Shown here one piece after another: positions 8,896-25,318 of a stretch of DNA of 64,000 nucleotides. A program made the translations under genes and the position numbers. The DNA is taken from contig NZ_FODT01000010.1 of assembly GCF_900110435.1 (NCBI RefSeq), positions 1 through 64,000 of the forward strand. Reading direction: 5' to 3'. Within the stretch, counting starts at the first letter, position 1. Each line of letters begins with the position of its first letter. Under the pieces are notes generated by a model. That model was not told the origin of the DNA. It made no database searches and saw only the letters and a program-made list of their open reading frames with translations. Source of the DNA: Rhodopseudomonas pseudopalustris (GTDB lineage: Bacteria; Pseudomonadota; Alphaproteobacteria; Rhizobiales; Xanthobacteraceae).

Positions 8896-8985
8896 TGGCG
8901 GAAGGGGTGGGATTCGAACCCACGGTGGGCTTGCACCCACGCCGGTTTTCAAGACCGGTGCCTTAAACCACTCGGCCACCCTTCC
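8896..8985 (-). tRNA. tRNA-Ser (anticodon UGA)
   Basis: The leftward strand folds as a class II tRNA: acceptor GGAAGGG pairing with CCCTTCC, anticodon stem CCGGT/ACCGG with loop CTTGAAA (anticodon TGA), a long variable arm (GTGGGTGCAAGCCCAC), the T-arm signature GGTTCGAATCC and an encoded CCA end. It is the integration site of the element to its right. The first 39 nt of this tRNA are repeated at the far end of the element. Confidence 0.97.
8947..8985. repeat. Left attachment-site repeat (39 bp)
   Basis: Identical over 39 bp to 25280-25318. In tRNA terms it covers nucleotides 1-39, from the 5' end to the last base of the anticodon loop. The flanks differ at once on both sides (ATCCA here, GCGTT at the other copy). 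Confidence 0.93.
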
Positions 8986-9054
8986 ATCCAATTGAAATTG
9001 TTTAGCTATTGTTGCGGAGCAGAATGGCAAAAATGGCCGTTTGCTACCGCTTTG

Positions 9055-10218
9055 CTACCCAATGCTTTTGGTGCGCTTGTTTATGGCGTCACGCAGCGCA
9101 TCGTCAACCCGCACCACAGCGTCGGCCTGCATTCCGGGCAGAACATGGGAATACAGGTCCAGCGTGATTCCCACCTTGGAGTGACCCAGGCGCTCGCTGG
9201 CGATCTTCGGATGAACGCCGCTTGCCAGCATATGGGTGGCGTGAGCGTGCCGCAGGTCGTGGAATCTGATGCGGGGCAGGGCAGTTTGGCCGAGCAGGCG
9301 TACCCATTCATGGGTGATGCTCGTCGGCTTCAATGGGTGGGCGTCCGCTTGTGCAACCACAAAGGAATCATCGGATAGGCGGACGCCGAGCCTTAAAAGC
9401 TCTTGCGCCTGCCGTGCACGGTGCGCCTTCAATTCATCGATCATTGTTGACGACAGCGCCACGGTGCGCGCCCTGCCGCTCTTGGGTTCCTTGTAGCGGA
9501 CGCCGTCTTTGGTTTCCTCGGCACTCTCGACAACCGCGATCTGACCGGCTGTGACATCGACGTTGCGCCAACGCAGGGCGGCTATTTCGCCGCGGCGCAG
9601 TCCGCATAGCACCGCCAGCAGGGCGGGCACCAACATCCGCGTGTTGCGCAGGGCGTCTATGAGCTCTGCCGTCTGCGGCAAATCAAACGTATGCATCGAG
9701 ACCCGCTCGACCTTGGGAGGGTCGACGGCATCGCAGGGATTCCGATTGAGCAGTTCCCATTTCACAGCCTGCCCAAGAGCCTGTTTAAGAACCCGGTGCA
9801 TGTGATGCACGGTGCGAGGCGAAAGACCGCCCTTGCCGTCCCGGCGCCCGCTGGCGAGGGCGGTTGTGTAGGATGCTGCGATCTGCGCAGGCCGCAGTTT
9901 GCTCAAGACGATACCACCGAGCAGCGGCGCGATGTTCTTGCGTGCCAGGTCGGCGTAGCGTTCATGGGACCGGGGAGAGACGTGCGCCTTGATGTGGTGG
10001 ATCCAGCGATCCAGGAACGCCGCAAGCGTCGTCTTGTCCGGCTCTAGGTAGGTGCCGCCCTTCATCGCCGAGATCAGGCGCGCGCACTCGACTTGTGCCT
10101 GCCGTTTGGTGCCGGTGAAGCTATGCCATTTGCGGCGACGCTTACCAGACGCTGGATCCGGTGTGTCAAGAATGATGGCCCAATGGCCGGGCGAGCGCTC
10201 GCGAATCGAGCCTTTCAT
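9055..10218 (-). CDS. int: Tyrosine recombinase (element integrase)
   Basis: A 387-residue phage-type integrase. It has an N-terminal AP2-like/arm-binding region (GSIRERSPGHWAIILDT), a SAM-like core-binding domain (about 65-165) and a C-terminal catalytic domain. That domain has Arg in CGLRRGEIAALRW, HDLRHAHATHML, GHSKVGITLDLYSHV with the nucleophilic Tyr, all the expected residues. It ends 69 bp from the tRNA 5' end and reads toward it, so read-through could contribute to tRNA expression. No stop or frameshift: likely functional. Confidence 0.95.
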   Translation of the reverse strand: MKGSIRERSPGHWAIILDTPDPASGKRRRKWHSFTGTKRQAQVECARLISAMKGGTYLEPDKTTLAAFLDRWIHHIKAHVSPRSHERYADLARKNIAPLLGGIVLSKLRPAQIAASYTTALASGRRDGKGGLSPRTVHHMHRVLKQALGQAVKWELLNRNPCDAVDPPKVERVSMHTFDLPQTAELIDALRNTRMLVPALLAVLCGLRRGEIAALRWRNVDVTAGQIAVVESAEETKDGVRYKEPKSGRARTVALSSTMIDELKAHRARQAQELLRLGVRLSDDSFVVAQADAHPLKPTSITHEWVRLLGQTALPRIRFHDLRHAHATHMLASGVHPKIASERLGHSKVGITLDLYSHVLPGMQADAVVRVDDALRDAINKRTKSIG

Positions 10219-10292
10219 GTTGTCCTCCCCAATCTAGAACTGGCATGGGGTAGCAAGACCCGATGGCAGGGTGCGCGTGTGGATAGTGGCCA

Positions 10293-10727
10293 TTACTTGC
10301 CCTTCCTCTGCTGCGCGATCTCTCGGTTGGCCCGATCGACCATCTCGGAGAGCTCGTTAAATTCTTCATCCGTCAGCGTCGACTCCTCCGCGGTCGGGAT
10401 CGAATCGATGAAGGCCGTGAGACGTGAGATCATCTGCGCCTTCACCGATGGTGAGATCGCGAAGTACCTACCATGTTCGGGCGGCTCGTAGCGGGGCTCC
10501 TTGCCGATCGTGTGCATGACGAGCGCGCTGATAAGTTTGTCGCTTTCTCGCCGGAACGACCCCGCCAAGCGCTCGGCTGCATCCTCCGACAGTGTAAGTC
10601 TTTTCTCAGCGGCCGACGCCTGCAGCTTTTCGTAAAGGTGATCGTGGATCCGCAGCGCAAGCACAGGCCGCTTCAACCCGCTGCTCGGTCGTCCAGCTTT
10701 TTTCTTCGGCGCAGGTTTGTTTTCCAT
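10293..10727 (-). CDS. Small basic/acidic regulator-like protein, unknown
   Basis: A 144-residue protein with a Lys-rich N-terminus (KPAPKKKAGRPSSG), then VLALRIHDHLYEKLQASAAEKRLTLSEDAAERL, which reads like a ribbon-helix-helix DNA-binding unit, and an acidic C-terminal helix (STLTDEEFNELSEMVDRANREIAQQR). It diverges from the AlpA-like gene across an AT-rich spacer with two matching operators, so a role as the element's repressor or regulator is reasonable. The family is not identified. Confidence 0.6.
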   Translation of the reverse strand: MENKPAPKKKAGRPSSGLKRPVLALRIHDHLYEKLQASAAEKRLTLSEDAAERLAGSFRRESDKLISALVMHTIGKEPRYEPPEHGRYFAISPSVKAQMISRLTAFIDSIPTAEESTLTDEEFNELSEMVDRANREIAQQRKGK

Positions 10728-10845
10728 CGTTATCCCAATCGGTGGTAATTTGTGTTACTTTATCATAACAAAAATTCTTTACAAGAGGTATAAACCGCCA
10801 TATCTAGGTTCTCGTTACGTTTCAATAACGGAAATGGAGAGCGGC
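10728..10845. promoter_or_regulatory. AT-rich divergent spacer with twin GTTA-N8-TAAC operators
   Basis: Two inverted repeats of identical format, GTTA-N8-TAAC, lie at 10754-10769 and 10814-10829, 60 bp apart. They flank an AT-rich stretch with a TATAAA -10 candidate near 10789. The spacer separates the leftward regulator-like gene from the rightward AlpA-like gene and replication module. It is the likely lysogeny/induction switch of the element. Confidence 0.55.
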
Positions 10846-11049
10846 ATGGATTCGGCGGTGCGGGATGCGCTGATTAAAGACCTCACGGTGTCGGTGGAAA
10901 CTGCGGGCAAGGCGTTCGGGATCGGTAGAAACGCGGCTTACGCAGCGTGCGCCAATCTTCAAATTCCCTCGGTCCGCATTGGAGGCCGGATCGTCGTTCC
11001 GACGGCCCCGCTCCGAAAAATGCTCGGCATCGACGTTGGCGCGCAGTGA
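10846..11049 (+). CDS. Excisionase/AlpA-like helix-turn-helix protein
   Basis: A 67-residue protein. Residues 10-60 (LTVSVETAGKAFGIGRNAAYAACANLQIPSV...) read as a MerR/excisionase-type winged helix-turn-helix that ends with RIVVPTAPLRKMLG. The start at 10846 is chosen because GGAGAG lies just upstream; ATG 10834 in the same frame is an alternative. In satellites such as PICIs and P4, a gene in this place (AlpA) turns on excision and replication. That role is inferred from size, fold and position. Confidence 0.65.
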   Translation: MDSAVRDALIKDLTVSVETAGKAFGIGRNAAYAACANLQIPSVRIGGRIVVPTAPLRKMLGIDVGAQ

Positions 11050-11067: not shown

Positions 11068-11823
11068 ATGGCCCCCGTCGTCGACATGGATGATGCGCGC
11101 CGCAAGCGCGATCTCGCGAGGGACTTCACCGCGCTGAAGTTGGCCGCGCTTGATCAGGCTGCCATCGACCCGCGGCTAACGCACCTTGATTTCCGGCACT
11201 ACTACTATCTGGCCAGCGCCGCCGACCGGCTCACCCAGGTCGCGCGGAGAAAACAACGGATCATTGCCGACGCGCTCGGCGTGACGCCCCGCGCGGTGCA
11301 GATAAGCGCCGAACGCCTGAGCGAGTTTCAGTACATCACCATCATCACGAAGGACGGCGGCAGCTACACCAAAGGCTATCAGATGGTCCTCGTAAAGGCG
11401 AACGAGGTTTCGCCTTCCGAAAACACAAAGGCGAACCCAGCTTCGCCTTGTGCCGAAAAAAGGCGAACGAGATCGCCAAAAAAGGCGAAGCAAAACGATG
11501 AAAAAGGCGAAGCGCCATTCGCACCAATCTTACCCTTTAATTCCCTTGAAATCCCTTCGCGCGCGCGCGGGCCAAGCAGCCCTGACGGGCTTGGCCTCGC
11601 AGGCGCGCTTCTGCGGCAGCGCCTGGGCGACGACGTATTCCGATCGTGGTTCGGCAAGGTCAGCCTCGTCTCGGTGGTAGACGGCATCGTCACCCTGTCG
11701 GCGCCGACCAGCTTCATACGAGACCGGATCATCAGCGACCATGACCAGTTGCTGCAATCGGTCTGGCAGGCGGTGGACCCCAACATCGTCCGCGTCAACG
11801 TCGTCACCGGGGGTGTCCGATGA
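11068..11823 (+). CDS. Replication initiator with C-terminal DnaA-N-like domain
   Basis: A 251-residue protein. The N-terminal part (about 1-110) has a winged-helix look (LTHLDFRHYYYLASAADRLTQVARRKQRIIADALGVTPRAVQISAERL). The middle (110-155) is a low-complexity KAN/KKAK linker whose DNA is an iteron array. The C-terminus (about 180-251, LRQRLGDDVFRSWFGKVSLVSV...FIRDRIISDHDQLLQSVW) resembles the DnaA N-terminal domain that recruits helicase. This layout recalls lambda O, where origin repeats lie within the gene. It probably starts replication of the excised element. Name withheld because the exact family is not certain. Confidence 0.75.
   Translation: MAPVVDMDDARRKRDLARDFTALKLAALDQAAIDPRLTHLDFRHYYYLASAADRLTQVARRKQRIIADALGVTPRAVQISAERLSEFQYITIITKDGGSYTKGYQMVLVKANEVSPSENTKANPASPCAEKRRTRSPKKAKQNDEKGEAPFAPILPFNSLEIPSRARGPSSPDGLGLAGALLRQRLGDDVFRSWFGKVSLVSVVDGIVTLSAPTSFIRDRIISDHDQLLQSVWQAVDPNIVRVNVVTGGVR
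11394..11511. repeat. Iteron array inside the replication gene (candidate origin)
   Basis: The 9-mer AAAGGCGAA occurs as direct copies at 11394, 11427, 11459, 11481 and 11503, with inverted TTCGCCTT copies at 11409 and 11442, seven sites in 118 bp. The first four copies form two inverted pairs with 5-6 bp spacers. An AT-rich tract (TTACCCTTTAATTCCCTTG) follows at about 11529. Position in a linker of the initiator gene suggests an origin of replication. Confidence 0.7.
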
Positions 11824-12014
11824 AGGGGCAACCAACCATTCACATGCCTGTCGAGGCATTCATCGGCGGCAATGGCGACGTGGTCTTGTTGCAGGAGATC
11901 ACTCAGCCCGATGGCGAGACGTTCATCCGCATCATGGTCGACCCCAAGAATTGCGCGGCGTTGTGCGCCGCCATCACTGCGGCAGCACGCGAGGGAGCAG
12001 AAGCGCATGACTGA
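11820..12014 (+). CDS. Small hypothetical protein
   Basis: A 64-residue protein starting MKGQPTIHMPVEAFIGGNG. Its ATG overlaps the stop of the replication gene, so it is translationally coupled. Predicted beta-rich N-terminus and an Ala-rich C-terminal helix (CAALCAAITAAAREGAEAHD). No family recognised. Confidence 0.6.
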   Translation: MKGQPTIHMPVEAFIGGNGDVVLLQEITQPDGETFIRIMVDPKNCAALCAAITAAAREGAEAHD

Positions 12015-12342
12015 CGGCATAACCTACCCGGACAGCCCGGGATTCAAGGCGCACGGCCCATCGGAAGATGCAGCCGCGAAGATGGCACCGCGCGCGCCGC
12101 GGATTCGCAACACGGTTCTCGACGAGATCGCCAAGCATCCGGCCGGCGTCACCGCCGATGAGATCGCCGCGGCTCTGGGCCTGTCCGTGCTGACGGTCCG
12201 CCCTCGCGTTTCAGAATTGCGCCGGCTCGGAGAGATCAGGGCAACCGGCGATCGCCGTTGCAACGCCAGCGGCATGACCGCCGGCACCTGGCGGATGGCG
12301 CCGCCACTTCCGAATGATCCCAGCGCGAAAGGTGAAGCATGA
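12007..12342 (+). CDS. Winged helix-turn-helix protein
   Basis: A 111-residue protein beginning MTDGITYPDSPGFKAHG and overlapping the previous gene by 8 bp. Residues 35-80 (RNTVLDEIAKHPAGVTADEIAAALGLSVLTVRPRVSELRRLGEI) form a clear MarR/LexA-like winged helix. The N-terminal tail is disordered. Likely a transcription factor or accessory DNA-binding protein of the element's early module. Confidence 0.65.
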   Translation: MTDGITYPDSPGFKAHGPSEDAAAKMAPRAPRIRNTVLDEIAKHPAGVTADEIAAALGLSVLTVRPRVSELRRLGEIRATGDRRCNASGMTAGTWRMAPPLPNDPSAKGEA

Positions 12343-12617: not shown

Positions 12618-12928
12618 GCAGCACCCGCCAGCTTCCGGACCAGCTCGCGAACTTGTATCCCACCAGCAATGATTGGGTGCGGGCATTCCCCTGGCAATAC
12701 GCCAGCGGGCGCGTTGACCACTACCAAACCGTTTTCCGCCGGCTGGTTTTCCTGGCCGGTGCCGAGCACCCGATCGAGCAGAAGGTGTGCGTCGCCGTTC
12801 CGCGTTCGATTTTCCACAACTCGCACGCGGCGCTCTGGGACATCGCAGGCCAGATCCGGCGGGCGAATAGCAGCAAGGCGCGGTCCAGGGACGGAAAATT
12901 CAAAAGGGCCGGTGGGAGGCCGCGCTGA
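12614..12928 (+). CDS. Small hypothetical protein
   Basis: A 104-residue protein starting MSSTRQLPDQLANLYPTSNDWVRAFPW, with a strongly basic C-terminal tail (RRANSSKARSRDGKFKRAGGRPR) that could bind nucleic acid. ATGA overlaps on both sides place it in the same translationally coupled chain. No family recognised. Confidence 0.55.
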   Translation: MSSTRQLPDQLANLYPTSNDWVRAFPWQYASGRVDHYQTVFRRLVFLAGAEHPIEQKVCVAVPRSIFHNSHAALWDIAGQIRRANSSKARSRDGKFKRAGGRPR

Positions 12929-14088
12929 TGCCGCCGCGCAAAGGAACGCCGCAGCGTCCGAAGGTTCGTCAGCCACCGGTGGCTGACCACTTCGCCACGA
13001 TCGTTGCCTTGTGCGAGGCGGGGTCAACATTGGCCGCGGCGTGCGGGGCGGTGCCGCACGGGCCAAACCTCAACGCGGTTCGGCGGTGGGTGCGCAACAA
13101 CGCGGATGCAGCCGAGCAATTGAGGGCGGCGCGGATGGCTGCAGGCGGCACCACGCGGGCGCCGTCAAGGATTCCACCGGAAGCATGGGAGGCGGGACTG
13201 CAGGCCGTCGCGACCTATGAGGGGGCGCTGACATCGCTGCGCGTTCCAGGCCAGCCCCATATTGACGATCTTCGTCGGCGCGCCGACCGCGATCCCGGCT
13301 TCGCTGCGCGGCTGAAGGCGGCGTTTGAACGGCGCCAAGCGCTAGGACTGCGAAAGGCGCGGTTCAGCCCGGCGGACTATTCGGCGGCAATTGAAAAACT
13401 CAAAGCTGACCGGTCGCGGAACATGACAGAAATCGACGCCGACTTGCGGCGCGAGAACTTGCCGGCGCTGGGAACGATCTATGTCCGGCGCTATCGCGAC
13501 GCAGATCTGGCGAAACAGTACGCGGAGAGCATCACCGCGACGCGTGGCATTTTCCATTTCAGCGAGGAGGCCTACGACGAGGCGCTGGCTATATTGCGAT
13601 CGGACCCGGCGAAAGCGCGCCTCATCATCAAACGCGCGAAGGGAAGGCTTCCCAGCTTCAACGCAATCGTTTCGCGCGCCAAGACCGATCCCGCCGTTGC
13701 CGCGATTTTCGGTGACGCCAGACTGAAGCGCCGCGCCGCGAAGGCCCATGCCAGAACCGACAAGGCGAACAAGCCTGTCTACCAGGACGGCGTTCTGCGC
13801 TCCGGGTTGTTGCTCGATGACCTGTACAGGGAGGCGAGCACGTTGTTTCACCGTGGTCTACCGGATCGTGACGACATGATTTCCGAGGTGGTGCTGGCGG
13901 TTCTGCAGGGCGAATTGAAACGAGAAGAGATCAGTACCAAAGGCGTCAAGCTCGGCTGGGCGCGCGTCAGCCGGTTCAACAAAGGTACCGATTCCCTTGA
14001 CCGGCCGATCGCCAGAGACGGCGGAAGCTCGACAACGGTGCTGGACATGGTGAAGGCCGACCACTGGTCTTTTGAGGACGCGATATGA
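12928..14088 (+). CDS. Composite DNA-binding protein, TerS-like N-terminus and sigma-like C-terminus
   Basis: A 386-residue protein. Residues 20-75 (FATIVALCEAGSTLAAACGA...NLNAVRRWVRNNADAAEQLRAARMA) resemble the helix-turn-helix of small terminase subunits. The middle is helical and rich in Lys/Arg. The last 80 residues (LDDLYREASTLFHRGLPDRDDMISEVVLAVLQGE...TDSLDRPIARDGGSSTTVLDMV) resemble sigma-70 family proteins, including the SLDxPI..DG...TLxD pattern seen before region 4. It stands just before the head module, so it might be a late activator. Both similarities are my reading and need profile searches. Confidence 0.5.
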   Translation: MPPRKGTPQRPKVRQPPVADHFATIVALCEAGSTLAAACGAVPHGPNLNAVRRWVRNNADAAEQLRAARMAAGGTTRAPSRIPPEAWEAGLQAVATYEGALTSLRVPGQPHIDDLRRRADRDPGFAARLKAAFERRQALGLRKARFSPADYSAAIEKLKADRSRNMTEIDADLRRENLPALGTIYVRRYRDADLAKQYAESITATRGIFHFSEEAYDEALAILRSDPAKARLIIKRAKGRLPSFNAIVSRAKTDPAVAAIFGDARLKRRAAKAHARTDKANKPVYQDGVLRSGLLLDDLYREASTLFHRGLPDRDDMISEVVLAVLQGELKREEISTKGVKLGWARVSRFNKGTDSLDRPIARDGGSSTTVLDMVKADHWSFEDAI

Positions 14089-14399
14089 GCTACGTTGGCC
14101 AGATGGTGCGGGCAGGCGGCAGCGCCCCGATGAAGGTCGTTGATATTTCGAACGACATTGCCGAATGCGTCTGGATCGATGGCAACGGCGTAATCCGGCG
14201 GCGCTTCCATGAGGTCGACCACCTCACGCCGTTCTGGATGTCGCTCGGGCCAAAGAGCCTTTGGCCCGACATGACGCAGATCGACCTGATCGAAATCGAG
14301 AAAGAGGAGCGGGTGGCCGCGGCGCAGAAGAAGGCGCAGCGCGAGGTTGCAAAGAAAGCGAAGAAGTCGAACAAGCTCAAGCGCAAGGTGTCGGCATGA
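14085..14399 (+). CDS. DUF2158-like small protein
   Basis: A 104-residue protein. Residues 6-55 (GQMVRAGGSAPMKVVDISNDIAECVWIDGNGVIRRRFHEVDHLTPF) follow the YodC/DUF2158 pattern of a small SH3-like barrel (V.L.SGGP.MTV...V.C.WF). The C-terminus is a charged Lys-rich helix. ATGA overlap with the preceding gene. Function unknown. Confidence 0.6.
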   Translation: MSYVGQMVRAGGSAPMKVVDISNDIAECVWIDGNGVIRRRFHEVDHLTPFWMSLGPKSLWPDMTQIDLIEIEKEERVAAAQKKAQREVAKKAKKSNKLKRKVSA

Positions 14400-14692
14400 A
14401 CGGGGAAAACGGATGGGTTAACCCAACGGTTATGGTCACCGACAAATCGTGGCGCGATCAGAAGCTTTGGGGGGCCAAAGCCATTGCAGATTTTGCCGAG
14501 GTCAGCGTTGATACTGTGTATCGCTGGGAGCAGTTGCCGGACTGTCCGGTCAGCAAGCCAGGCGGGCGTTACTTCGCGCTCCGCACGGCCTTGTCGCGGT
14601 GGATGTTGAGCAAGGCTGCAAGGTCTTGCGAGAATGTGCCAGATAACTCACGATCATGCGGGGTAGACCGTGCCGGTGGTTCGGCCGCATAG
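14396..14692 (+). CDS. Helix-turn-helix DNA-binding protein
   Basis: A 98-residue protein (MNGENGWVNPTVMVTDKSW...) with an excisionase/MerR-like helix-turn-helix at about 25-62 (AIADFAEVSVDTVYRWEQLPDCPVSKPGGRYFALRTALSRWML). The start overlaps the previous stop. Placed directly before the portal gene, where small packaging or regulatory factors occur. The C-terminal 30 residues look unstructured. Confidence 0.6.
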   Translation: MNGENGWVNPTVMVTDKSWRDQKLWGAKAIADFAEVSVDTVYRWEQLPDCPVSKPGGRYFALRTALSRWMLSKAARSCENVPDNSRSCGVDRAGGSAA

Positions 14693-14696
14693 ACTG

Positions 14697-15914
14697 ATGA
14701 TGCGGCTATGGCCAAGGCGAGCAGTCGAGATCAAGGCGTCGCTGGCAAATCCGGATCCCGAGTTGCTCAGCATCTTCGGGGCAGGTTTGCCGGGCGCGAT
14801 TACGCGCGCTCAGGCCCTTGACGTTCCGGTGGTCAGCACCGCGATCCGAACGCTCAGCGAAGCCGCGGCGACGCTCAGTATCAAGGTTGTCCGCATCAAC
14901 GATGACGGCACCGAAACCGACGACGCCAAGCATCCCGTCGCCAAGTTGCTGCAGGATCAGGTCAACGACTGGACCAGCGCCTTCGAACTGGTCCGCGACC
15001 TGGTGGTGCAGGCGCTGACCTGCGACGCGGGCGGCATTGCTTGGATCAACCGCGTCGACGGCAGGCCGCACGAAATCATCATCTACCAGCCGGGCAAGAT
15101 TTCTGTTTCCTATGCCGACACTGGCGAGCCGAGCTATCGCATCGATAGCCGTCTGCTGGACGCTGCCGACGTGATCCATTTGCGGTCGCCGTTCAGCCGC
15201 TGCCCGCTGACGATGGCGATGCGCGCAATCTCGGTGGCGTGGCATTTGGAGAATCACGCGCTCAACCTGTTCAAGAAGGGCGCCCGGCCGGGCGGTGTGA
15301 TCAAGTTCAAGAAAACCCTTGGCGACGAGGGGCTGAAGAAGATGAAGGCCGGCTGGCGCGCGGCGTTCTCCGGTTCGGACAATTCCGGCGAGACGGCCGT
15401 TCTGTGGGACGACGCCGATTTTCAACAACTCACGCTCAACAGCACCGACAGCCAATTTTTGGAGAACAGGAAATTCCAAATCCTGGAGATCTGCCGGGCT
15501 TTCCGCATCCCGCCGGGCATGGCCTATGAGCTGGACCGCGTCACCTACAACAACGGCGAACAGCAGGGCCAAGAGTTCCTGAGCTACAGCCTCGAGCCGT
15601 GGCTGCACGCGCTGGAAAACTGTTTCCGCCGGGCGCTGTTCTCCACCGACGAACGGGCATCCTATCGCGTCGTCTTCGATCGCGACGACCTGACCCGCGC
15701 CAGCCTGACCGAGCGCGCCGCGGCGATCAACAGCTTGCGGGCGTCGAAGGTGCTCAACGCCAACGAGGGCCGGTCATGGATCGGGCTGCAGCCCTATGAA
15801 GGCGGTGACGTTTACGAAAATACGAACATCAGCACCGACACCCCGGCGGCGGACGGTTCGAACCCGCGCGCGGGCAGCACCCCGCCGAAACAGAAACTGC
15901 AGGCGGCAGCATGA
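14697..15914 (+). CDS. HK97-type portal protein
   Basis: A 405-residue protein that forms the dodecameric DNA entry/exit ring at one vertex of the head. Family features include AQALDVPVVSTAIRTLSEAAATL near the N-terminus, ADVIHLRSPF, NLFKKGARPGGVIKFKK, the segment FLENRKFQILEICRAFRIPPGMAYELDRVTYNNGEQQ, and LEPWLHALENCFRRALF. Length is normal for the family. A GTG at 14670 is an alternative start. First gene of an uninterrupted head module; ATGA overlap with the protease. Confidence 0.93.
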   Translation: MMRLWPRRAVEIKASLANPDPELLSIFGAGLPGAITRAQALDVPVVSTAIRTLSEAAATLSIKVVRINDDGTETDDAKHPVAKLLQDQVNDWTSAFELVRDLVVQALTCDAGGIAWINRVDGRPHEIIIYQPGKISVSYADTGEPSYRIDSRLLDAADVIHLRSPFSRCPLTMAMRAISVAWHLENHALNLFKKGARPGGVIKFKKTLGDEGLKKMKAGWRAAFSGSDNSGETAVLWDDADFQQLTLNSTDSQFLENRKFQILEICRAFRIPPGMAYELDRVTYNNGEQQGQEFLSYSLEPWLHALENCFRRALFSTDERASYRVVFDRDDLTRASLTERAAAINSLRASKVLNANEGRSWIGLQPYEGGDVYENTNISTDTPAADGSNPRAGSTPPKQKLQAAA

Positions 15915-16435
15915 GCAACGCTCTGGATCGGGCTTATTTCACGACCAAGATCATTGCCGACGATGCCGGCGTGGTCTCCTGTCTTGCGTGGCCCTACGGC
16001 AAGCCTGACCGTGTCGGCGACGTGATCGAGAAGGGCGCGTTCGGAGACATCGATCTGCCGCTGCCCATGCTGGCCTTCCACGACATGAAAAGCCCGATCG
16101 GCGCGTGGAGCCAGGCGATCGACAAGGCGGACGGCCTGCATCTCTCCGGCAAGATCCTCGTTGGAAAGGTCGCCATGGCAACCGAATGCCATGAGCTGGT
16201 CATGTCCGGTGGCATCCGCGCCGTCTCCGTCGGCTTCATCACCAAGAAAGCGAAACCCCGCAAGGGCGGTGGCCGTACCATCAGCGAAGCCGAGCTGATC
16301 GAGTGCAGCATGGTCCCGGTGGGAATGCATCCCGGCGCGCGCCTTACCAGCGCAAAGTCGGTCATCGAGGCGCTGGCAATCGCCCAGGCCATCAACCGCG
16401 CCACGGCGGCGCTCACGGCAGGAACATCGAAATGA
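15911..16435 (+). CDS. HK97-type prohead protease (U35)
   Basis: A 174-residue protease that trims scaffold and capsid during head maturation. Features include RVGDVIEKGAFG near residue 35, the catalytic His in MLAFHDMKSPIG, GKILVG, VSVGF with the likely Ser nucleophile (about 100), and LIECSMVPVGMHPGAR. Overlaps the portal stop and the capsid start by ATGA, so dosage is coupled. Full length, no lesions. Confidence 0.92.
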   Translation: MSNALDRAYFTTKIIADDAGVVSCLAWPYGKPDRVGDVIEKGAFGDIDLPLPMLAFHDMKSPIGAWSQAIDKADGLHLSGKILVGKVAMATECHELVMSGGIRAVSVGFITKKAKPRKGGGRTISEAELIECSMVPVGMHPGARLTSAKSVIEALAIAQAINRATAALTAGTSK

Positions 16436-17648: not shown

Positions 17649-18035
17649 ATGCGCGATCTTGCTTCAAACATCGGCGTCGTCCTGGCGCTGTCTCCCGCGG
17701 TGCAGGCCGCGACCATCAAGGGCAACGCGGTCGATCTGCAGGACTATGAAGGCGCGGCCCTGATCCTCAACAGCGGTGCCGTCGTCGGAGCCGGAAGCTT
17801 TGCCGCCAAACTGCAGGAGGCCGAGACTACCGCGGACGGCGACTTCACCGACGTTCCGGCCGATCTGTTGGTCGGTGTGTTGCCGGCGGCGCTGGCGGCC
17901 GATGCCACGGTCAAGCAAAGCTACATCGGACATAAGCGCTATGTCCGGGTGGTGGTGACCAAGAACAGCGGAACGTCCGTCGCGCTCGGCGCGGTGTTCG
18001 TGCTGGGCAACGCCCGCAACCGCCCGGTGGCCTGA
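17649..18035 (+). CDS. Probable head decoration or accessory head protein
   Basis: A 128-residue protein 14 bp after the capsid gene, preceded by AAGGAA. Sequence is beta-rich with small residues (AATIKGNAVDLQDYEGAALILNSGAVVGAGSFAAKLQEAET...YVRVVVTKNSGTSVALGAVFVLG). Proteins of this size and place often decorate or cement capsids. The assignment rests on position and composition only. Confidence 0.55.
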   Translation: MRDLASNIGVVLALSPAVQAATIKGNAVDLQDYEGAALILNSGAVVGAGSFAAKLQEAETTADGDFTDVPADLLVGVLPAALAADATVKQSYIGHKRYVRVVVTKNSGTSVALGAVFVLGNARNRPVA

Positions 18036-18048: not shown

Positions 18049-18414
18049 ATGCCGATGCGCGCACCATCCATCCGTGGTTGCTGCGGGCGTCGGCTGCCCA
18101 AGGAGGTCATGTGCCCGTGCCAGCAGGCCAGGAAGCGGGAAGCCGACAAGGCTTATGATGCTGGGCGGCCATCGGCCTCACGGCGTGGCTATGACGCCGA
18201 ATGGCGGACCCTGCGCAAGGCCTATCTCGCAGAGCCTGGTCACCAACTCTGTGCATGTGGAGCGCCAGCCACGCTTGTCGGTCACATCGTCAGCATCAGA
18301 CAGGCACCAGGCCGCAGGCTGGATCGGAGCAATTGGAAGCCATCCTGCACGCCCTGCAACCTGCGTCAGAACATTCGCTGTGAGGGCGGCTTCGGTAAGG
18401 CTACCCGGGGGTAG
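18049..18414 (+). CDS. HNH endonuclease
   Basis: A 121-residue protein with two zinc-binding CxxC-like pairs (CACG and CTPC) around an HNH core: GHIVSIRQAPGRRLDRSNWKPSCTPCNLRQNI. In HK97-like and cos-type packaging systems, a small HNH protein works with the terminase to cut at cos. Presence beside TerS/TerL suggests cos packaging. The residue before the first core His is Gly in place of the common Asp (VDHI), which may be tolerated. Confidence 0.85.
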   Translation: MPMRAPSIRGCCGRRLPKEVMCPCQQARKREADKAYDAGRPSASRRGYDAEWRTLRKAYLAEPGHQLCACGAPATLVGHIVSIRQAPGRRLDRSNWKPSCTPCNLRQNIRCEGGFGKATRG

Positions 18415-18490: not shown

Positions 18491-18796
18491 ATGGCGATCG
18501 TCACGTTGGAAGAGGTCAAGGCCCAGCTGAATCAGACGCTGGACGTCGACGACGAACTGATCGAGCGCAAGATCTGTGCCGCGCAGTGCCATATCGAACA
18601 GCTGCTCGGCTTCAAGATCTCCGATCAGTACACGCCGACCAAGATTCCGGCGCCGTTGAAGGAATGCGTCTGCCAGCTGGCAGCGCATTGGTACGAAAAC
18701 CGCGAGGCGGTGCTGGTGGGTGTCAATGCGCAGTCGCTGCCGATCGGTGTGGCCGACATCGTGAACGAATTTCGGAACTGGAGCTGGGCGGGCTGA
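18491..18796 (+). CDS. Head-tail connector protein (gp6-like)
   Basis: A 101-residue protein (MAIVTLEEVKAQLNQTLDVDDELIERKICAAQCHIEQLLG) with the helical pattern of the phage connector family that attaches below the portal. The 76 bp upstream have no gene. It marks the end of the head; in a full phage the tail module would follow within a few genes, which does not happen here. Confidence 0.88.
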   Translation: MAIVTLEEVKAQLNQTLDVDDELIERKICAAQCHIEQLLGFKISDQYTPTKIPAPLKECVCQLAAHWYENREAVLVGVNAQSLPIGVADIVNEFRNWSWAG

Positions 18797-18799: not shown

Positions 18800-19126
18800 A
18801 TGCGTTCCGGCAACCTCGACAGTCTGATTGAGATCCAGCGTTTCACCGTCACGGGTGATGACGGCATGGGAAATGAAATCCAGGAATGGGCGCCGCTCGC
18901 CACGCTTCGCGCTCAACTGATTCAGGCCGGGACCGAGGAGTTCATCCGCAACTACGCCACCAGCCAGGACACCGTTATCGTGTTTCGCACGCGCTACCTG
19001 GAGGGCGTCACCAACATCGATCGCGTGGTCTATGACGGCGTCGTCTACGACATCAAGGAGACCAAGGAGATCGGCCGCGCGCGAGGCCTGGAGATCAGGA
19101 CGATTTCGCAAGGGCAGGTGGCCTGA
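18800..19126 (+). CDS. Head-tail adaptor (head closure) protein
   Basis: A 108-residue protein of the Phage_H_T_join family. It begins MRSGNLDSLIEIQRFTVTGDDGMGNEIQEWAPLATLRAQL, and the repeated beta strands and YDGVVYDIKETKEIGRARGLEI near the end are typical. It closes the filled head and gives the docking face for a tail, the surface at which a satellite must match its helper phage. Confidence 0.88.
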   Translation: MRSGNLDSLIEIQRFTVTGDDGMGNEIQEWAPLATLRAQLIQAGTEEFIRNYATSQDTVIVFRTRYLEGVTNIDRVVYDGVVYDIKETKEIGRARGLEIRTISQGQVA

Positions 19127-19527
19127 TGCGCGGCACGAAACCGACGCTGGTGGTCGACAACGGCACGGTGCTGCGGGACATCAAGGCGCCGTCGTGGATG
19201 TCGAAGGACGCCAAGGCCGAATGGCGGCGCGTATTCCCGATCGTCCGCAAGCGGCGCATCCTAACCACGGCCGATCTGGGCTCACTGGAAAATTACTGCA
19301 TCGCGCTCGGCACCGTGCGGGAAATGGAACGGACGCTGCAAGCCGAAGGCCACGTGTTCTCCGGCGACTCCGGTCCGAAGCGGCACCCGGCTGTTGCCAT
19401 CCAATCAGATGCTATGACGCGCGCGCTGCGCCTTGCCTCGGAGCTCGGTCTCACACCTGTAAGCCGATCGCGGCCGGCAGTGCGGAAAGATGATGATGAC
19501 GAAGACGTATCCCCACTGGATTTTTGA
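19126..19527 (+). CDS. Terminase small subunit (P27 family)
   Basis: A 133-residue protein with the P27 pattern APSWMSKDAKAEWRRVFPIVRKRRILTTADLGSLENYCIALGTVREMERTL. It recognises the packaging site and feeds DNA to the large subunit. Its start overlaps the adaptor stop, and the gene overlaps TerL by 38 bp. The order head-completion genes then terminase at the 3' end differs from many phages, where terminase comes first. Confidence 0.9.
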   Translation: MRGTKPTLVVDNGTVLRDIKAPSWMSKDAKAEWRRVFPIVRKRRILTTADLGSLENYCIALGTVREMERTLQAEGHVFSGDSGPKRHPAVAIQSDAMTRALRLASELGLTPVSRSRPAVRKDDDDEDVSPLDF

Positions 19528-21097
19528 CGGCAGCGAAATCGCTGATCCGCTAGGCCACGGTGAAAGAGCCGTGCAGTTCTTGCGCGCGCTACGTCATCCC
19601 AAGAGTACGTTGCCAAAGCGAGCCTTTCGGCTGGATGAATGGCAGGAGCGCATCATCCGCCGCATTTATGGACCCCGCAATGAGGACGGCACCCGTGTCG
19701 TCAAGACAGTTGTATTGGTAATTGCTCGCGGTAATCGCAAGACGTCATTGGCCGGCGCGCTGTCGCTGCTGCACACCATCGGCCCGGAGCGGGTGCCGGG
19801 CGGCGAAAACATCCTCGCGGCATCCGATCGCAAACAGGCCGGCTATGGCTTCCGCGAGGCCGCCGGCATCGTGCGGGAAGACAAGCGCCTGGTCGCGGCG
19901 ACGCGGATTTACGACGCGCACAATTCGGTGAAAACCATCCACTTCATTCGGGACGGGTCTTTCCTCGAGGCGATCAGCGGCGACGCCGGGACGCAGCACG
20001 GCCGGACCCCAGCCTTCGTGTTTGCCGACGAATTGCACATCTGGAGAAACGCCGAACTCTGGAAAGCATTGAAGTCGGCGATGGTGAAGTCGCAGGGTTC
20101 GCTGTTGGTGGTGGCGACGACCAGTGGCCGCGGCCAAGAGAATATCGCCTTCGAGATCGTCGATCGCGCGCGCAAAGTCGCAAGCGGCGAGATTATTGAC
20201 CCAACCATGCTGCCGATCCTGTTCGAGACGGCGGCGGATGCCGACTGGAAGGATGAGGCGCTGTGGTACGCCGCAAATCCCGGTTTGGCTCTCGGATACC
20301 AGGATATCGAAGGCCTGCGCCAGCTTGCGCGTGAGGGCGAAACCAGCATCACGGCTCGCGAGACGTTTCGCCAATACAATTTGAATGTTTGGCTCGATCA
20401 CTCGACCGACCCGTTTGTGGACATGCAGATTTATGACCGGGGCGGCGGCGCGTTGCCGGACGGCCTAGACGGTCTGCCGTGTTGGATCGGGGTGGATATG
20501 TCGACCACGACCGACCTGACCGCGGTGGTGGCCTGCATCCGCAAGGACGACGATTTTGTGGTGTTGCCGCATTTCTTCTGCCCCGGCGACAATTTGCGCG
20601 CGCGCGCCGATCGCGACGGTGTCCCGTACCCCGCTTGGGCTGCGGCCGGCCACCTGGCTCCCACGCCGGGCAACGTGATCGATTACAGCGCCGTTGAGGC
20701 CTGCATTCGTGGTCTCAATGAGCGGTTCGACGTGCGGGAGATCGGTTTCGATCCGGCGTATGCGCAGGCGGTGATGGGGCCGCTGACCGATGACGGGCTG
20801 CCGACCGCGACGATTCGTCAAGGCTGGGTGACGCAGTCGCCGGCGCTCAACGAACTGGAGCGCGTCATCCTGGCCGGAAAGCTGCTGCACGGTGGTCACC
20901 CGGTCTTACGGTGGTGCTTCGACAACGTCGCCATCCACACCGACAGCGCCGGCAACCGCACCATGCACAAGGGCAAGTCGCGGGATAGAGTGGATGGCGC
21001 GGTGGCGACGTGGATGGCGGTGTCGCGCGCTGCGGCTTCGGAGACGCGGTCGTTCTATGATTCCGATGCCTTCACCGAGGATATGGCGAGCTTTTGA
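19490..21097 (+). CDS. Terminase large subunit
   Basis: A 535-residue packaging motor. The ATPase half has an atypical Walker A (VIARGNRKTSLAGALSLL), Walker B and catalytic Glu in FVFADELHIW, and coupling motif VVATTSG. The nuclease half starts about residue 320 with the metal-binding Asp in WIGVDMSTTTDLTAVV and a second acidic site in VREIGFDPAYAQ, with KSRDRVDGAVA near the end. Three in-frame ATGs (19490, 19493, 19496) follow GGAAAG. Full length. It ends the rightward operon. Confidence 0.94.
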   Translation: MMMTKTYPHWIFDGSEIADPLGHGERAVQFLRALRHPKSTLPKRAFRLDEWQERIIRRIYGPRNEDGTRVVKTVVLVIARGNRKTSLAGALSLLHTIGPERVPGGENILAASDRKQAGYGFREAAGIVREDKRLVAATRIYDAHNSVKTIHFIRDGSFLEAISGDAGTQHGRTPAFVFADELHIWRNAELWKALKSAMVKSQGSLLVVATTSGRGQENIAFEIVDRARKVASGEIIDPTMLPILFETAADADWKDEALWYAANPGLALGYQDIEGLRQLAREGETSITARETFRQYNLNVWLDHSTDPFVDMQIYDRGGGALPDGLDGLPCWIGVDMSTTTDLTAVVACIRKDDDFVVLPHFFCPGDNLRARADRDGVPYPAWAAAGHLAPTPGNVIDYSAVEACIRGLNERFDVREIGFDPAYAQAVMGPLTDDGLPTATIRQGWVTQSPALNELERVILAGKLLHGGHPVLRWCFDNVAIHTDSAGNRTMHKGKSRDRVDGAVATWMAVSRAAASETRSFYDSDAFTEDMASF

Positions 21098-21412: not shown

Positions 21413-21802
21413 CTATGTGGAGCGCCGACGTCGCGGAAATCGGCCCCGATCCAAAATCTTCCATCCAAGCGGGCTCAGGCGATAACCGACTTTCATGCCG
21501 ATGGCGAAGTACCGATCAGAAGACCGACCCTTTTCGGCCAACCCAAGTGACACGAGTCTATCGGCCACAACCTCGCCAAGGTTGCCGCGTTTCGCCAGGG
21601 GTTCAAAGATATCGATTGCATTGGCGAGTTGGCCTACACCACGCCATTCGTGAGCGTCGAGCGCAGTTTCCGCGAGGAACACCTTCTCCTCTTCGTCGGT
21701 CATTTGTTCCAGTTGCCTTTCGAGTGCTCGCGAAAGAGCGCCAAAGGCCGCCGCCTGTTGTCGGCGGTCAGTAGCGGACCGTAACAATTCCAGATTTGCC
21801 AT
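21413..21802 (-). CDS. Winged-helix-like protein beside gpW homologue
   Basis: A 129-residue protein (MANLELLRSATDRRQQAAAFGALSRALERQLEQMTDEEEKVF...). An N-terminal helical part is followed by VVADRLVSLGLAEKGRSSDRYFAIGMKVGYRLSPLGWKILDRG, the same helix-wing pattern as the next gene. Its start overlaps the gpW-like gene by 35 bp; a start at an internal Met is possible. No family recognised. Confidence 0.55.
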   Translation of the reverse strand: MANLELLRSATDRRQQAAAFGALSRALERQLEQMTDEEEKVFLAETALDAHEWRGVGQLANAIDIFEPLAKRGNLGEVVADRLVSLGLAEKGRSSDRYFAIGMKVGYRLSPLGWKILDRGRFPRRRRST

Positions 21803-22112
21803 CTTCACGGTCGCGGTAATTGACCGTGATTGCTGATAAGAGGCCATCGGAAAACACCGACTGTATTGAATCAACGTCAATGCGTGGCTCATAGATCGAG
21901 AGCGCCTTTTTTGCGGCGGCCTCGATGGCGTCGGAATCATAGCCGTGACGAGGTTTTCCGGATTCGTCCAAGATCTCAAATCCGACGTCTCTCCGCATAA
22001 CTCTTGTTCCCAGCGGCGTTGTCAAAAGAACCTCGATCGATTGGATAATGTGCTGGGTGCGATCTATGACTTTTCCGGTGTTACGGTCGATGCCAACCAT
22101 GTCGGGACTCAC
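21768..22112 (-). CDS. Orphan GPW/gp25-family baseplate protein
   Basis: A 114-residue protein with the signature of P2 gpW/T4 gp25: VGIDRNTGKVIDRTQHIIQSIEVLLTTPLGTRVMRRDVGFEILD. These proteins sit in the baseplate wedge of contractile tails. Here it stands alone, on the strand opposite the head genes, with no gpJ, gpV or sheath gene near. That makes it an odd item in an otherwise tail-less element. It could be cargo that modifies the helper's tail, or a leftover. Confidence 0.8.
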   Translation of the reverse strand: MSPDMVGIDRNTGKVIDRTQHIIQSIEVLLTTPLGTRVMRRDVGFEILDESGKPRHGYDSDAIEAAAKKALSIYEPRIDVDSIQSVFSDGLLSAITVNYRDREDGKSGIVTVRY

Positions 22113-22154: not shown

Positions 22155-23051
22155 CTAACCACTGACCATCGCCATGAAGTCGGTTTCTCCGACGATCTTC
22201 ATTGCATGTCCCCTGGTGATCATCTCCTCCGCCTTACGGTGCTTCGAGCTTTTCTCTTGCCCGCGGGTGAAGCGGAGATCCTGATCGCCGACGACGAGAA
22301 TCGTGACCTTTCTCGATATGCTGTCCACCACGTCGCAACCGGCCCCAGCGGCAGCGCGGGCGGCCTCAGCCCGGGGAATCTGCAGCGCGCCCGTGAAAAG
22401 TATGGTTTCGCCCGCCAGCGGTCCGGTAGCCGCGCCTGATTGAGCGCACTTCGTCGCATAGCTCGGCCTCGTCCGTCGCAACGGTTTGCTGGTTGCGGTC
22501 GATTCATAGCCGAGCTCATCAACCCATTGCTGCAGTGTGACACCACCCTCGCTAATCGCCCTAAGCAACACCAGGCCTGCGGCCCGGGCATCCTCCGCGG
22601 CGTCGTGGTGTTTGAAGTGGATGCCGAATGCGCGGGCCAGATTGGCTAACCCATAGCCGCCGTCGTCTCGAAGCCCGGTCCACGTTCGGCGAGCAACCTG
22701 TAGGCTGTCGAGCCACGTACATGGCAAACCGCCCGTGCCGTATTTGCCAGCTGCGCGGGCAAGTGCAGTCCGATCGAACGGGCTGTGATGGACAATGGCC
22801 GTGTCCTGGAGCGCGGTGCTAATGACGGGAAAAACCCGCGCCATCGTCGGCTTTCCCGCGACGTCTTCAGGGCGGATTCCATGGATGCCGATATTGACCG
22901 GATCGAAATCGTCTTCCGGGTCGACCAGGATCGTAAGCGATTTGAAGACCTCTCCGGCTCGGAAATGCACGAGTCCGATAGAGCATATGCTGCCGAAGTC
23001 GGCATTCGCCGTCTCGACGTCCAGCGCGATGAAGTCCGTAACTTCGGACAT
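22155..23051 (-). CDS. DEDDh exonuclease with C-terminal BRCT domain
   Basis: A 298-residue DnaQ-like 3'-5' exonuclease. Motifs: FIALDVETANADFGSICSIG (Asp/Glu pair), HHSPFDRTAL (second Asp site) and HHDAAEDARAAG (DEDDh His and Asp). About residues 210-298 form a BRCT domain (GPLAGETILFTGALQIPRAEAARAAAGAGCDVVDSISRKVTILVVGD). The start at 23051 has GGGGGA at ideal spacing, so longer forms are rejected. First gene of the leftward accessory block. It may serve repair, or interfere with phage DNA. Confidence 0.85.
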   Translation of the reverse strand: MSEVTDFIALDVETANADFGSICSIGLVHFRAGEVFKSLTILVDPEDDFDPVNIGIHGIRPEDVAGKPTMARVFPVISTALQDTAIVHHSPFDRTALARAAGKYGTGGLPCTWLDSLQVARRTWTGLRDDGGYGLANLARAFGIHFKHHDAAEDARAAGLVLLRAISEGGVTLQQWVDELGYESTATSKPLRRTRPSYATKCAQSGAATGPLAGETILFTGALQIPRAEAARAAAGAGCDVVDSISRKVTILVVGDQDLRFTRGQEKSSKHRKAEEMITRGHAMKIVGETDFMAMVSG

Positions 23052-23290
23052 CCGATGTCCCCCAATGGCACGGCATAGTTTCCGCAACCAGAGCGGGCGC
23101 GCAAGGGGCGCGGCAATCGACTTTCGGCGCGGTGGTGCCGGCGTGTCCTGCCACGCGGCCAACGTCATCCCAATCGGCCGCGGGGCCGACATGGTGCCGC
23201 CAGGCATGGAATCCGAGGCGGTGCATTACCAGTGCGCCGCGGCGGTGGTGCTGCTGAGCTTCGACCAAATCGGGTAGGTGGTGCGAAACT

Positions 23291-23502
23291 GGGGCAACTT
23301 GCCCCACTTTCCGCAGCAAAGGGTGTTCGAGTCTGGAACACCTTGCCGCCGCGAGGTTTCGCGACAAGTTGTCGCGAAAGGTGGGCAACTTGCCCACGTT
23401 TCTGGCGGCAAGGGCAAGGTGTTGCAAGTTGCAACACCTTTGCGTGGTCGGGATTCCGGCCTCGCTGCCGTCACGGGTTTCTGCACAACTTGTGCGGAAA
23501 CC
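23291..23502. repeat. Five palindromes with a common CAA(C/G)TTG centre
   Basis: Palindromes of 15-27 bp lie at 23291-23305, 23357-23379, 23381-23397, 23416-23440 and 23476-23502. Each is centred on CAACTTG or CAAGTTG. The arms differ between copies (GGGG, TTTCGCGA, GTGGG, AAGGTGTTG, GGTTTC-GCA) yet stay complementary inside each copy, with one mismatch in the last. Same loop, different but compensated stems. Confidence 0.75.
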
Positions 23503-23583: not shown

Positions 23584-23620
23584 ACCGTAACGGTCACCGT
23601 AACGGTCACCGTAACGGTGG
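23584..23620. repeat. 12-bp tandem repeat, three copies
   Basis: The unit CCGTAACGGTCA recurs three times, the last copy degenerate, followed by a related GACGTAACG. Each unit contains a short inverted repeat (ACCGTAACGGT), so the array could bind a dimeric protein. Confidence 0.6.
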
Positions 23621-23633
23621 ACGTAACGTTTCG

Positions 23634-24234: not shown

Positions 24235-24960
24235 ATGAAAACCCCAGCACGAAAGAACGCCGAGGCGTCATTCCGCGCCCTGACACAATTTTCAAAATTA
24301 CCACCCGGTCACAAGACCCTGCGCGTCCCCGATGATTCGTCGGCGCCACATCTGAACGAGCGCGAGTTCGCGGTGGTGGACACGACCGACTGCGACGTTC
24401 AGCACGGCGAATTGTTCGTGGTCCAGCACGAAACCGGCAACCGTCGACGGGAAATCGTCCAGGTCCGGAGCGGCCATTGCCAGATCACCGAGACCGGGCC
24501 GGAGCAACTGGTCTGGTGGACCGGAGAACTCCGGGGTTGGCGCCAGATCGCTGGCGGCTCAGGCGGGATTCCCGTTTACAGCGGCTTGTCAGACGGCCCC
24601 TTTGAGGCGCAGGGGCTCCAATCCAGATTGCTCGGGCGAGTGGTCGGTTATGCCGCGACCGCGCTTGGCGACCTCCTGGCGCCCGCGGCTGGCTGGGAGA
24701 ACGAGGAAGCGGGTAACGCCGCCTTCGACCCGGGCGAATATCTCGACGCGCTGATCGCCGCGGGCCACCAGCCGTATGTGATCCAGCGCGACGGCAGGAC
24801 GATTTATTACGAGCAGTACCCTGAGCGGCGCCAGACCAACGCAGAACGAGAGCGGGTACTAGCGGCGCGCTGGCGGTGGGTGAAGGCATCCACGGCGCTG
24901 GCGCGGACCAAGGTGGAGTGCCTGCAGCGCGGGCTGGTGTATGAGGGGCGCGCGGCATGA
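24235..24960 (+). CDS. LexA/S24-like domain protein lacking an obvious HTH
   Basis: A 241-residue protein. Residues 25-85 (KTLRVPDDSSAPHLNEREFAVVDTTDCDVQHGELFVVQHETGNRRREIVQVR) follow the S24 peptidase pattern of LexA and phage CI repressors (V.GDSM.P....Gd..vVd......G...v...). The usual Gly and Met around the catalytic Ser are changed (DDSSAP) and no clear catalytic Lys is seen. No helix-turn-helix is evident; the C-terminus is charged and helical (QTNAERERVLAARWRWVKAS). Possibly an SOS-linked switch or anti-repressor of the element. Confidence 0.5.
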   Translation: MKTPARKNAEASFRALTQFSKLPPGHKTLRVPDDSSAPHLNEREFAVVDTTDCDVQHGELFVVQHETGNRRREIVQVRSGHCQITETGPEQLVWWTGELRGWRQIAGGSGGIPVYSGLSDGPFEAQGLQSRLLGRVVGYAATALGDLLAPAAGWENEEAGNAAFDPGEYLDALIAAGHQPYVIQRDGRTIYYEQYPERRQTNAERERVLAARWRWVKASTALARTKVECLQRGLVYEGRAA

Positions 24961-25121
24961 ATGACGATCTTGCCAGAGAAATCATCACCGCATGGCGCGA
25001 AGCTGATCCGCAGACGCAAGCGCAGGTGCTCGACCTCTTGAGGCGGGCATGTTCGCCTGACCCGGCAATCCGAGCAACGGCGATCGTGGAGGCCAAGGCC
25101 GCGGCGGCAAGGTGCGACTGA
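24957..25121 (+). CDS. Small helical protein, 54 residues
   Basis: ATGA overlap with the preceding gene. MNDDLAREIITAWREADPQTQAQVLDLLRRACSPD... ends ...AKAAAARCD. Mostly amphipathic helix, with the overlap and normal codon use supporting translation. No family recognised. Last gene before the right end of the element. Confidence 0.55.
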   Translation: MNDDLAREIITAWREADPQTQAQVLDLLRRACSPDPAIRATAIVEAKAAAARCD

Positions 25122-25181
25122 GAGAACAGCCGGCGAACAGATTGCTACCATTCTGCAACCCAACTCCGTAACAGACGACGA

Positions 25182-25213
25182 CATAGGGCGGGATCAACAG
25201 GTCCCGCCCTATG
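25182..25213. terminator. Intrinsic terminator near the right end
   Basis: A perfect 12-bp stem, CATAGGGCGGGA / TCCCGCCCTATG, with an 8-nt loop and CGTTTT after it on the + strand. It closes the rightward transcript about 70 bp before the right attachment repeat. Confidence 0.85.
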
Positions 25214-25279
25214 CGTTTTCCCTTATGAATTGGGACTTTATGGGAAAGAACGAGACGGGAACGGACGGCCGTTAGCGAA

Positions 25280-25318
25280 TTTCAAGACCGGTGCCTTAAA
25301 CCACTCGGCCACCCTTCC
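25280..25318. repeat. Right attachment-site repeat (5' half of tRNA-Ser)
   Basis: Perfect 39-bp copy of the first 39 nt of tRNA-Ser(UGA), ending at the anticodon loop. There is no 3' half beside it, so this is the displaced tRNA fragment left by integration. Chromosomal sequence follows at 25319; the original tRNA promoter should lie in the first 100 bp to its right. Confidence 0.93.

Follow-up and report, generated by a model that had tools for sequence, protein, structure and literature searches.

A probable head-building phage satellite in Rhodopseudomonas pseudopalustris and its alphaproteobacterial relatives with and without a tail shaft

The DNA analysed here, referred to as the window, comprises 64,000 nucleotides of Rhodopseudomonas pseudopalustris (contig NZ_FODT01000010.1, positions 1 to 64,000) and contains an element of 16.33 kb spanning positions 8947-25318. 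The element is very probably an integrated phage satellite which makes and fills its own HK97-type head while a helper phage supplies the rest of the particle. The initial annotation had proposed a head-building satellite of an alphaproteobacterial lineage rather than a decayed prophage, and this is supported by the ratios of nonsynonymous to synonymous substitution (dN/dS), by sister elements, by element size and by the relatives found in other genomes.

The head and packaging genes lie on the plus strand in the order portal (14670..15914; PF04860, E 4e-80), S78 prohead protease (15911..16435; PF04586, 4e-12), HK97-type major capsid protein (16432..17634; PF05065, 4e-81), a conserved head-cluster protein of 128 amino acids (aa) (17649..18035; phrog_5707, 3e-30), HNH endonuclease (18049..18414; PF01844, 3e-4; phrog_144, 1e-15), head-tail connector Ad1 (18491..18796; PF05135, 2e-15; phrog_40, 3e-21), head completion or closure protein Hc1 (18800..19126; PF05521, 6e-20; phrog_25, 5e-16), terminase small subunit TerS (19126..19527; PF05119, 2e-26) and terminase large subunit TerL (19490..21097; PF20441, 5e-33; PF03354, 3e-14; phrog_9, 2e-122). 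The set is overlapping and intact from portal through TerL, as had been claimed, and the Pfam and PHROGs matches bear this out. The best matches among 50,697 phage records were only 36.6% identical for TerL and 37.9% for the capsid, and Hc1 matched the head closure proteins of HK022, HK140 and mEpX2 at 30% (17 records). Contig C9 of the host genome bears another HK97-type capsid cluster, separate from the element and with a capsid 33% identical to that of the element. Comparison of 30 open reading frames (ORFs) of the element with Pfam and 20 with PHROGs revealed neither a tail tube, sheath, tape measure or fibre nor a hub, holin or lysin.

The element is bounded by exact 39-bp direct repeats, attL at 8947..8985 and attR at 25280..25318, and a tyrosine integrase gene adjoins attL (9055..10218, minus strand; PF00589, 1e-22; PF14659, 7e-8); both the perfect repeats and the integrase had been recognised correctly at the outset. 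The left copy lies within the gene for tRNA-Ser(TGA) (8896-8985, minus strand), of which it forms nucleotides 1-39, that is the 5' half with the anticodon and not the 3' end. Given that the repeat covers this half, transcription of the tRNA gene restored on integration should depend on a promoter within the element. When the two flanks were joined, they aligned continuously in 2 of 15 other congeneric genomes, as expected for an empty site (G199, 72% over query 279-882; G108, 69% over 349-887; junction at 439). Matches in the other 13 were one-sided or reached barely past the tRNA and are thus uninformative.

A search of related genomes for elements with the same heads and no tail genes at tRNA-Ser had been suggested, and the same element was found at the same tRNA in R. 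rhenobacensis DSM 12706 (G046), a genome of the same family under a different genus code. The two elements are 88-97% identical in DNA, in mosaic blocks: the integrase end at 97%, position 14055 to the 128-aa gene at 95%, HNH to TerL at 88%, gp25 (described below) and the exonuclease at 92.5% and the right end at 95%. The integrases are 99% identical, most early genes differ, and the R. rhenobacensis att repeats show two-base and one-base differences from those of the window. The sole left-flank stretch that aligned was 209 bp long and 77.5% identical. The HNH gene (18049-18414) is a 55% identical allele inside a block otherwise 88-95% identical and is a likely spot of exchange. R. rhenobacensis has a second element, whose head DNA is 83.5-89% identical to that of the window and which has another integrase, other early genes and a position at tRNA-Arg.

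Between the window and the first R. rhenobacensis element, dN/dS ran from 0.034 (protease) to 0.213 (Hc1) in eleven shared genes, with TerL at 0.048 and the capsid at 0.061; HNH (0.284 at a dS of 1.5) was left out of this range as a diverged allele. Between the window and the second element TerL gave 0.068 at a dS of 0.91 and seven genes gave 0.05-0.18, the protease (0.36) and HNH (0.28) being diverged alleles. Low dN/dS across a dS of 0.91 indicates that purifying selection has acted on the head genes while the tail-less state persisted over a long divergence.

Capsid matches at E<=1e-20 were present in 179 of the 296 genomes of the host's family, although many of those at ~35% identity are probably capsids of the gene transfer agent (GTA) type. 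At least 45% identity was reached by 45 rows in 36 genomes, window included; the 44 other rows range from 45 to 98% (counted from the listing), and the surroundings of 37 of them were fetched. A wider search gave 213 stretches in genome contigs and 289 in viral contigs, of which the best 80 of each were fetched. The relatives come from Rhodopseudomonas, Ancylobacter, Xanthobacter, Azorhizobium, Martelella, Devosia, Bosea, Roseovarius, Salipiger, Paracoccus, Azospirillum and others. The loci were mapped in two overlapping sets, G and L (for example G089 = L164 and G046 = L123/L124). The full series of portal, capsid, HNH, TerS and TerL was recognised in 129 of the 199 mapped loci, contig ends truncating several loci; 183 have a TerL call and 161 the 128-aa protein.

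Exact tRNA-anchored repeats of at least 20 bp were found in 26 of the 119 loci tested (76 with a tRNA), and in a control none of 91 tRNA regions had a match of at least 20 bp in an unrelated locus. The elements so bounded have a mean size of 17.42 kb (standard deviation 0.86, n = 25, with G089/L164 counted once, G122 left out and the first R. rhenobacensis element added), and all units with such repeats measure 15.5-18.9 kb. The L loci reach only 10 kb each way, so much longer units could not show there; most G loci are 40 kb long and none gave a unit above 18.9 kb at this threshold. In one locus, G122:C1 (L106-L107), an element of 16.5 kb lies at tRNA-Pro; its portal, protease and capsid genes were recognised, but no TerL was detected.

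Two architectures were seen among the 183 mapped loci with TerL, counted over the overlapping sets. Class B (108 loci) has a tail-shaft profile match either within the head block or downstream of TerL. Class A (52 loci), which the window element resembles, has no match to six tail profiles near TerL, stretches that end soon after TerL being liable to misjudgement. Another 23 were unclear and the 16 of 199 loci lacking TerL were left unclassed. Pfam searches with eight class-B proteins identified tail completion gp17 (9e-22), the TMP_3 tape measure (2e-49), the TAC_18 chaperone (9e-14) and HK97-gp10 (3e-5), and gave matches below cut-off to a tube (2e-5), a GTA-gp10-type protein (1e-3) and TAC_11. 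A glycine-rich 349-aa protein had no Pfam match, nor had the tape-measure candidate of G178 (665 aa), which was called by cluster similarity only. A further 96 ORFs from 28 class-B loci (set A4, 96 of 102 listed) gave PHROGs matches to chaperones (17 + 3), distal tail protein (5), weakly to tape measure (4), and to tail tube (3), minor tail protein (3) and tail protein (2). The 25 commonest of the 57 families include none for fibre, hub or lysis. The tRNA-bounded class-B elements (L126-L282 and G loci) measure 16.4-18.9 kb and carry the head genes with a tail tube and tape measure; class-B elements may be satellites whose theft is confined to the tail tip.

The same kind of search was made with accessory ORFs from the window and from 16 relatives, of which 15 are of class A and one, L133, is unclear. 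This A3 set of 104 consists of 98 of 162 listed ORFs, none from L201, and six from the window. Among the 25 commonest of 55 Pfam families the sole tail family was gp25 (2 members), and among the 25 commonest of 126 PHROGs families gp25 (2) and a tail chaperone (2, best 1e-7) occurred. Accessory ORFs of tail-less relatives (A3 set, L123-L179) matched the PADLOC models IetAS, RmrA and type IIG restriction.

In a TerL tree of 140 rows, 17 of them of unclear class, classes A and B interleave with 14 changes, a soft count as the tree was a quick one with several long branches. One clade (99 on the tree) unites both R. rhenobacensis elements with the window and its IMG/VR copy, and these four rows together with the class-B elements G089 and L206 form a six-row set (100 on the tree). 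The length of tail DNA and of the remaining non-head DNA trade off against each other (rho -0.83, n = 25, with 2.4 kb of a doubtful tape-measure match in G195 counted as tail), which follows arithmetically from the near-constant size. In this family a tail-shaft cassette (tube, terminator, chaperone, tape measure) is gained and lost at a total length of ~17.4 kb. Since related elements are near-uniform in size and acquire or shed part of a tail, they probably rely on the tails of other viruses to spread, and the members probably differ in the share of the helper tail that is taken.

The following course of events is suggested for the window element. The SOS response or infection by a helper would induce excision by the integrase, the element would replicate from its own replication protein (Rep), heads would be assembled and ~16.3 kb would be packaged by its own TerS, TerL and HNH. 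These steps from excision to packaging are proposed from gene identity. The Ad1 connector and Hc1 would then join the filled heads to completed tails made by a co-infecting phage, a step proposed from the missing tail and from analogy with the capsid-forming phage-inducible chromosomal islands (cfPICIs), and the particles would be released by the helper's lysis.

The element had been described as lacking a tail tube, tape measure, fibre, holin and lysin. That description holds for each of these, but a gene for a lone gp25-type baseplate wedge of contractile tails was overlooked (21768..22112, minus strand; PF04965, 1e-12; phrog_43, 7e-22), so the element does possess one tail gene. The listed phage matches of this gp25 are 34-40% identical and mostly annotated as baseplate proteins. 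Our best guess is that gp25 lets the element fit or out-compete the baseplate of a contractile helper, perhaps as an adapter. That the element is a satellite in which gp25 is a mere passenger, with no role in tail use, is a serious possibility, though on balance the less probable one. The gene lies on the opposite strand among accessory genes, was not found in the second R. rhenobacensis element and has matches at E<=1e-8 in only 5 of 296 genomes of the family and 15 of 397 of the order, the host being counted in both. Against a passenger, gp25 has a dN/dS of 0.119 relative to its copy in the first R. rhenobacensis element (32 synonymous and 16 nonsynonymous differences, no stop), and in G084, G360, G420 and G538 it sits among contractile-tail-like genes. 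The latter neighbourhoods were read by eye and are four of the five mapped stretches, all except G424; the gp25 stretches of G012 and G074 were left out. The gene next to gp25 in G084 is Baseplate_J by Pfam, and the neighbours in G360, G420 and G538 are ones which we take to be sheath-, J- and I-like.

Several observations weigh against a helper-dependent satellite. One baseplate gene is present, and the early module has no primase recognised by Pfam, PHROGs or NCBIfam. The rep gene has no convincing counterpart in the close sister element of R. rhenobacensis. No helper was identified: besides the element, the host genome showed one PF05065 capsid locus (C9), with no further search for a helper made, and it has no Baseplate_J gene, of which G046, G089 and G084 have one each. 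The nearest TerL neighbours outside the element's own clade carry a partial tail. That the relatives are ordinary prophages was rejected on the size of the tRNA-bounded units; the exception is G103, in which a 16-bp tRNA repeat pair, below the 20-bp threshold, lies 28.4 kb apart, so that a longer element is possible there.

Given its tail-bearing nearest neighbours, the window lineage may have lost the tail-shaft cassette at some point. The main rival account is that the element is a decayed prophage which has lost tail and lysis genes and is now inert. Its place within a phage-like head lineage and the partial tails of those neighbours would fit this, and the lone gp25 could be debris. We nevertheless consider a decayed prophage improbable. 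The shared head genes have intact reading frames and low dN/dS, a sister with another tRNA, integrase and early region has likewise stayed tail-less, a near-identical copy is present in another genus, the related elements fall within a narrow size range, and no near relative occurs among the phage records (best 37-38%). The initial annotation had named as the refuting result close relatives in which a full tail and lysis module follows the same heads; such relatives were sought among those fetched and not found, and neither were broken or relaxed head genes. The nearest tail-bearing relative, in R. palustris JSC-3b (G089; TerL 78%), has a partial tail within an 18.1-kb tRNA-bounded element.

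The viral contigs agree with this. Among the six longest of the 80 IMG/VR contigs with the head set (28.8-65.3 kb), searched with custom profiles over the stretches fetched (60 of 65.3 kb for G296, 40 of 56.1 for G297, 40 of 64.0 for G298, 40 of 42.1 for G299, and the whole of G300 and G301), no single element with these heads and a full tail was recognised. Three of the six, G296, G297 and G300 (L286-L290, L295-L296), have a second, separate head set, which belongs to a prophage that adjoins the satellite and encodes a portal, capsid and TerL of its own. On the far side of the satellite integrase in G298 are long unannotated genes and a match to the gp10 profile, which may belong to another phage. 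Terminal repeats were found in none of the 80 IMG/VR stretches, many of which are incomplete, so this result is uninformative.

The element's own Rep, head, packaging genes and integrase could also be those of a small but complete virus that has no tail and needs no helper tail to enter cells. Portal, Ad1 and Hc1 are, however, neck components to which a tail is normally attached, tail shafts occur in related elements, and no lysis gene or adsorption protein was found in the element, all of which makes such a virus very improbable. Least credible of all is a GTA-like domesticated head cluster serving the host: the host's C9 capsid cluster may be a GTA, but its capsid is only distantly similar, and a GTA has no integrase or att sites of its own and a fixed host locus, whereas the element's integrase, exact att repeats, own rep gene, patchy presence with empty sites and near-identical copy in another genus mark a selfish mobile element.

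The early region of the proposed satellite contains, besides the integrase, a 144-aa protein that is a possible regulator (10293..10727, minus strand; phrog_795 alone, 7e-4) and, all on the plus strand, a small helix-turn-helix (HTH) protein (10837..11049), a replication initiator with a C-terminal DnaA_N domain (11068..11823; PF11638, 1e-9; phrog_270, 3e-5), a winged-HTH regulator (12010..12342; phrog_1123, 7e-16, with several winged-HTH families near cut-off), a 386-aa protein with an N-terminal HTH resembling that of Sf6 TerS (12928..14088; PF20901, 1e-5, below cut-off; phrog_1482, 2e-7) and an excisionase/MerR-like HTH protein (14396..14692; phrog_66, 8e-6). The initial annotation named an AlpA-like gene and a replication protein with iterons. 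An HTH gene is indeed present at 10837, and it is weakly excisionase/AlpA-like (HTH_17, E 0.005, below cut-off; phrog_32619, 1e-6; no NCBIfam match). The Rep with its DnaA_N domain stands likewise. The supposed iterons are the 2.9 tandem copies of the 12-bp ACCGTAACGGTC at 23584..23618, which are also kept in the R. rhenobacensis element where no convincing Rep homologue exists, so their assignment to this Rep is unsupported.

The right end, downstream of TerL, is accessory. A DnaQ-like exonuclease with a BRCT domain (22155..23207, minus strand; PF00929, 6e-14; PF00533, 3e-5; NF004844, 3e-45, below the model cut-off) agrees with its R. rhenobacensis copy at 290 of 301 residues in an ORF alignment. 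Two accessory ORFs lie on the plus strand at this end, and the 241-aa accessory protein at 24235..24960 (plus strand) has no Pfam, PHROGs or NCBIfam match. Five palindromes with the core CAASTTG at 23290..23497 form a candidate origin or regulatory region, and the DNA-fold z for 23270-23510 is -9.4. They are of odd length and are all of the CAASTTG palindromes with an arm of at least 6 in the 64-kb window. The matching R. rhenobacensis stretch has three, the aligned stems being partly kept and partly losing pairs, and a search of the fetched loci, 4.59 Mb in all, gave no other such cluster.

The family spans photosynthetic, plant-associated and marine Alphaproteobacteria. The two interleaved architectures on one head lineage are new here, and no description of this alphaproteobacterial family was found in the available excerpts of the satellite literature (PMC11389934, PMC10448857, PMC13230959, PMC8682789, PMC10690885); the lists of the main cfPICI papers may contain members. 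We propose tentatively, as a matter close to evenly balanced if tilted slightly against, that these elements are a widespread satellite family with one head module and a hard limit of ~17.4 kb, in which the tail-shaft cassette is swapped against accessory genes, including defence genes, so that its members range from theft of the whole tail to theft of the tip and fibres only, the window element having added gp25 to take over contractile tails. Related heads with and without a tail shaft at similar length constitute a natural experiment on which parts a satellite has to encode itself and which can be stolen, and make docking to foreign tails, the control of head capacity and the reason for a single baseplate protein testable.

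Satellites that build heads and borrow tails have been described from other bacteria (PMC11389934, PMC10448857, PMC13230959, PMC10690885), and the following comparisons draw on excerpts of those accounts. MulchRoom and MiniFlayer of Streptomyces, satellites of 14.8 and 17.4 kb, likewise have their own capsid, portal, terminases and head-to-tail adapter, but differ in their direct terminal repeats of ~1 kb, their presumed virulent helpers, their hosts and, in MiniFlayer, tail fibres of its own (PMC10690885). The putative RepA_N satellites of E. coli are att-bounded and tRNA-associated as well, with some capsid genes, a tape measure, one baseplate component and no full tail, but are reported to be without the terminase, protease and head-tail adapter that the window element has (PMC10448857). 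TG54, a 15.8-kb cf-PISP of Vibrio crassostreae with head and packaging genes and no tail genes, is similar in content; unlike the window element it is episomal, gammaproteobacterial and without an integrase, having another tyrosine recombinase (PMC13230959).

The initial annotation had called the element cfPICI-like. The cfPICIs, such as EcCIEDL933 (PMC11389934, PMC10448857, PMC13230959), have the helpers HK106 and HK446 and capsids in three clades (PMC11389934). Like them, the element has a complete head and packaging set of its own (portal, protease, capsid, HNH, adaptor, TerS and TerL), an integrase at att sites in the chromosome, the size of an island and no tail shaft. In contrast to them, its Rep has a DnaA_N domain and a weak replication-initiator match with no primase, and is not the Pri-Rep named as a cfPICI signature (PMC10448857), its AlpA match is weak, it has a lone gp25, and sisters in its family carry a tail tube and tape measure. 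Thus the element appears to work like a cfPICI, though it may not be a member of that family in the strict sense.

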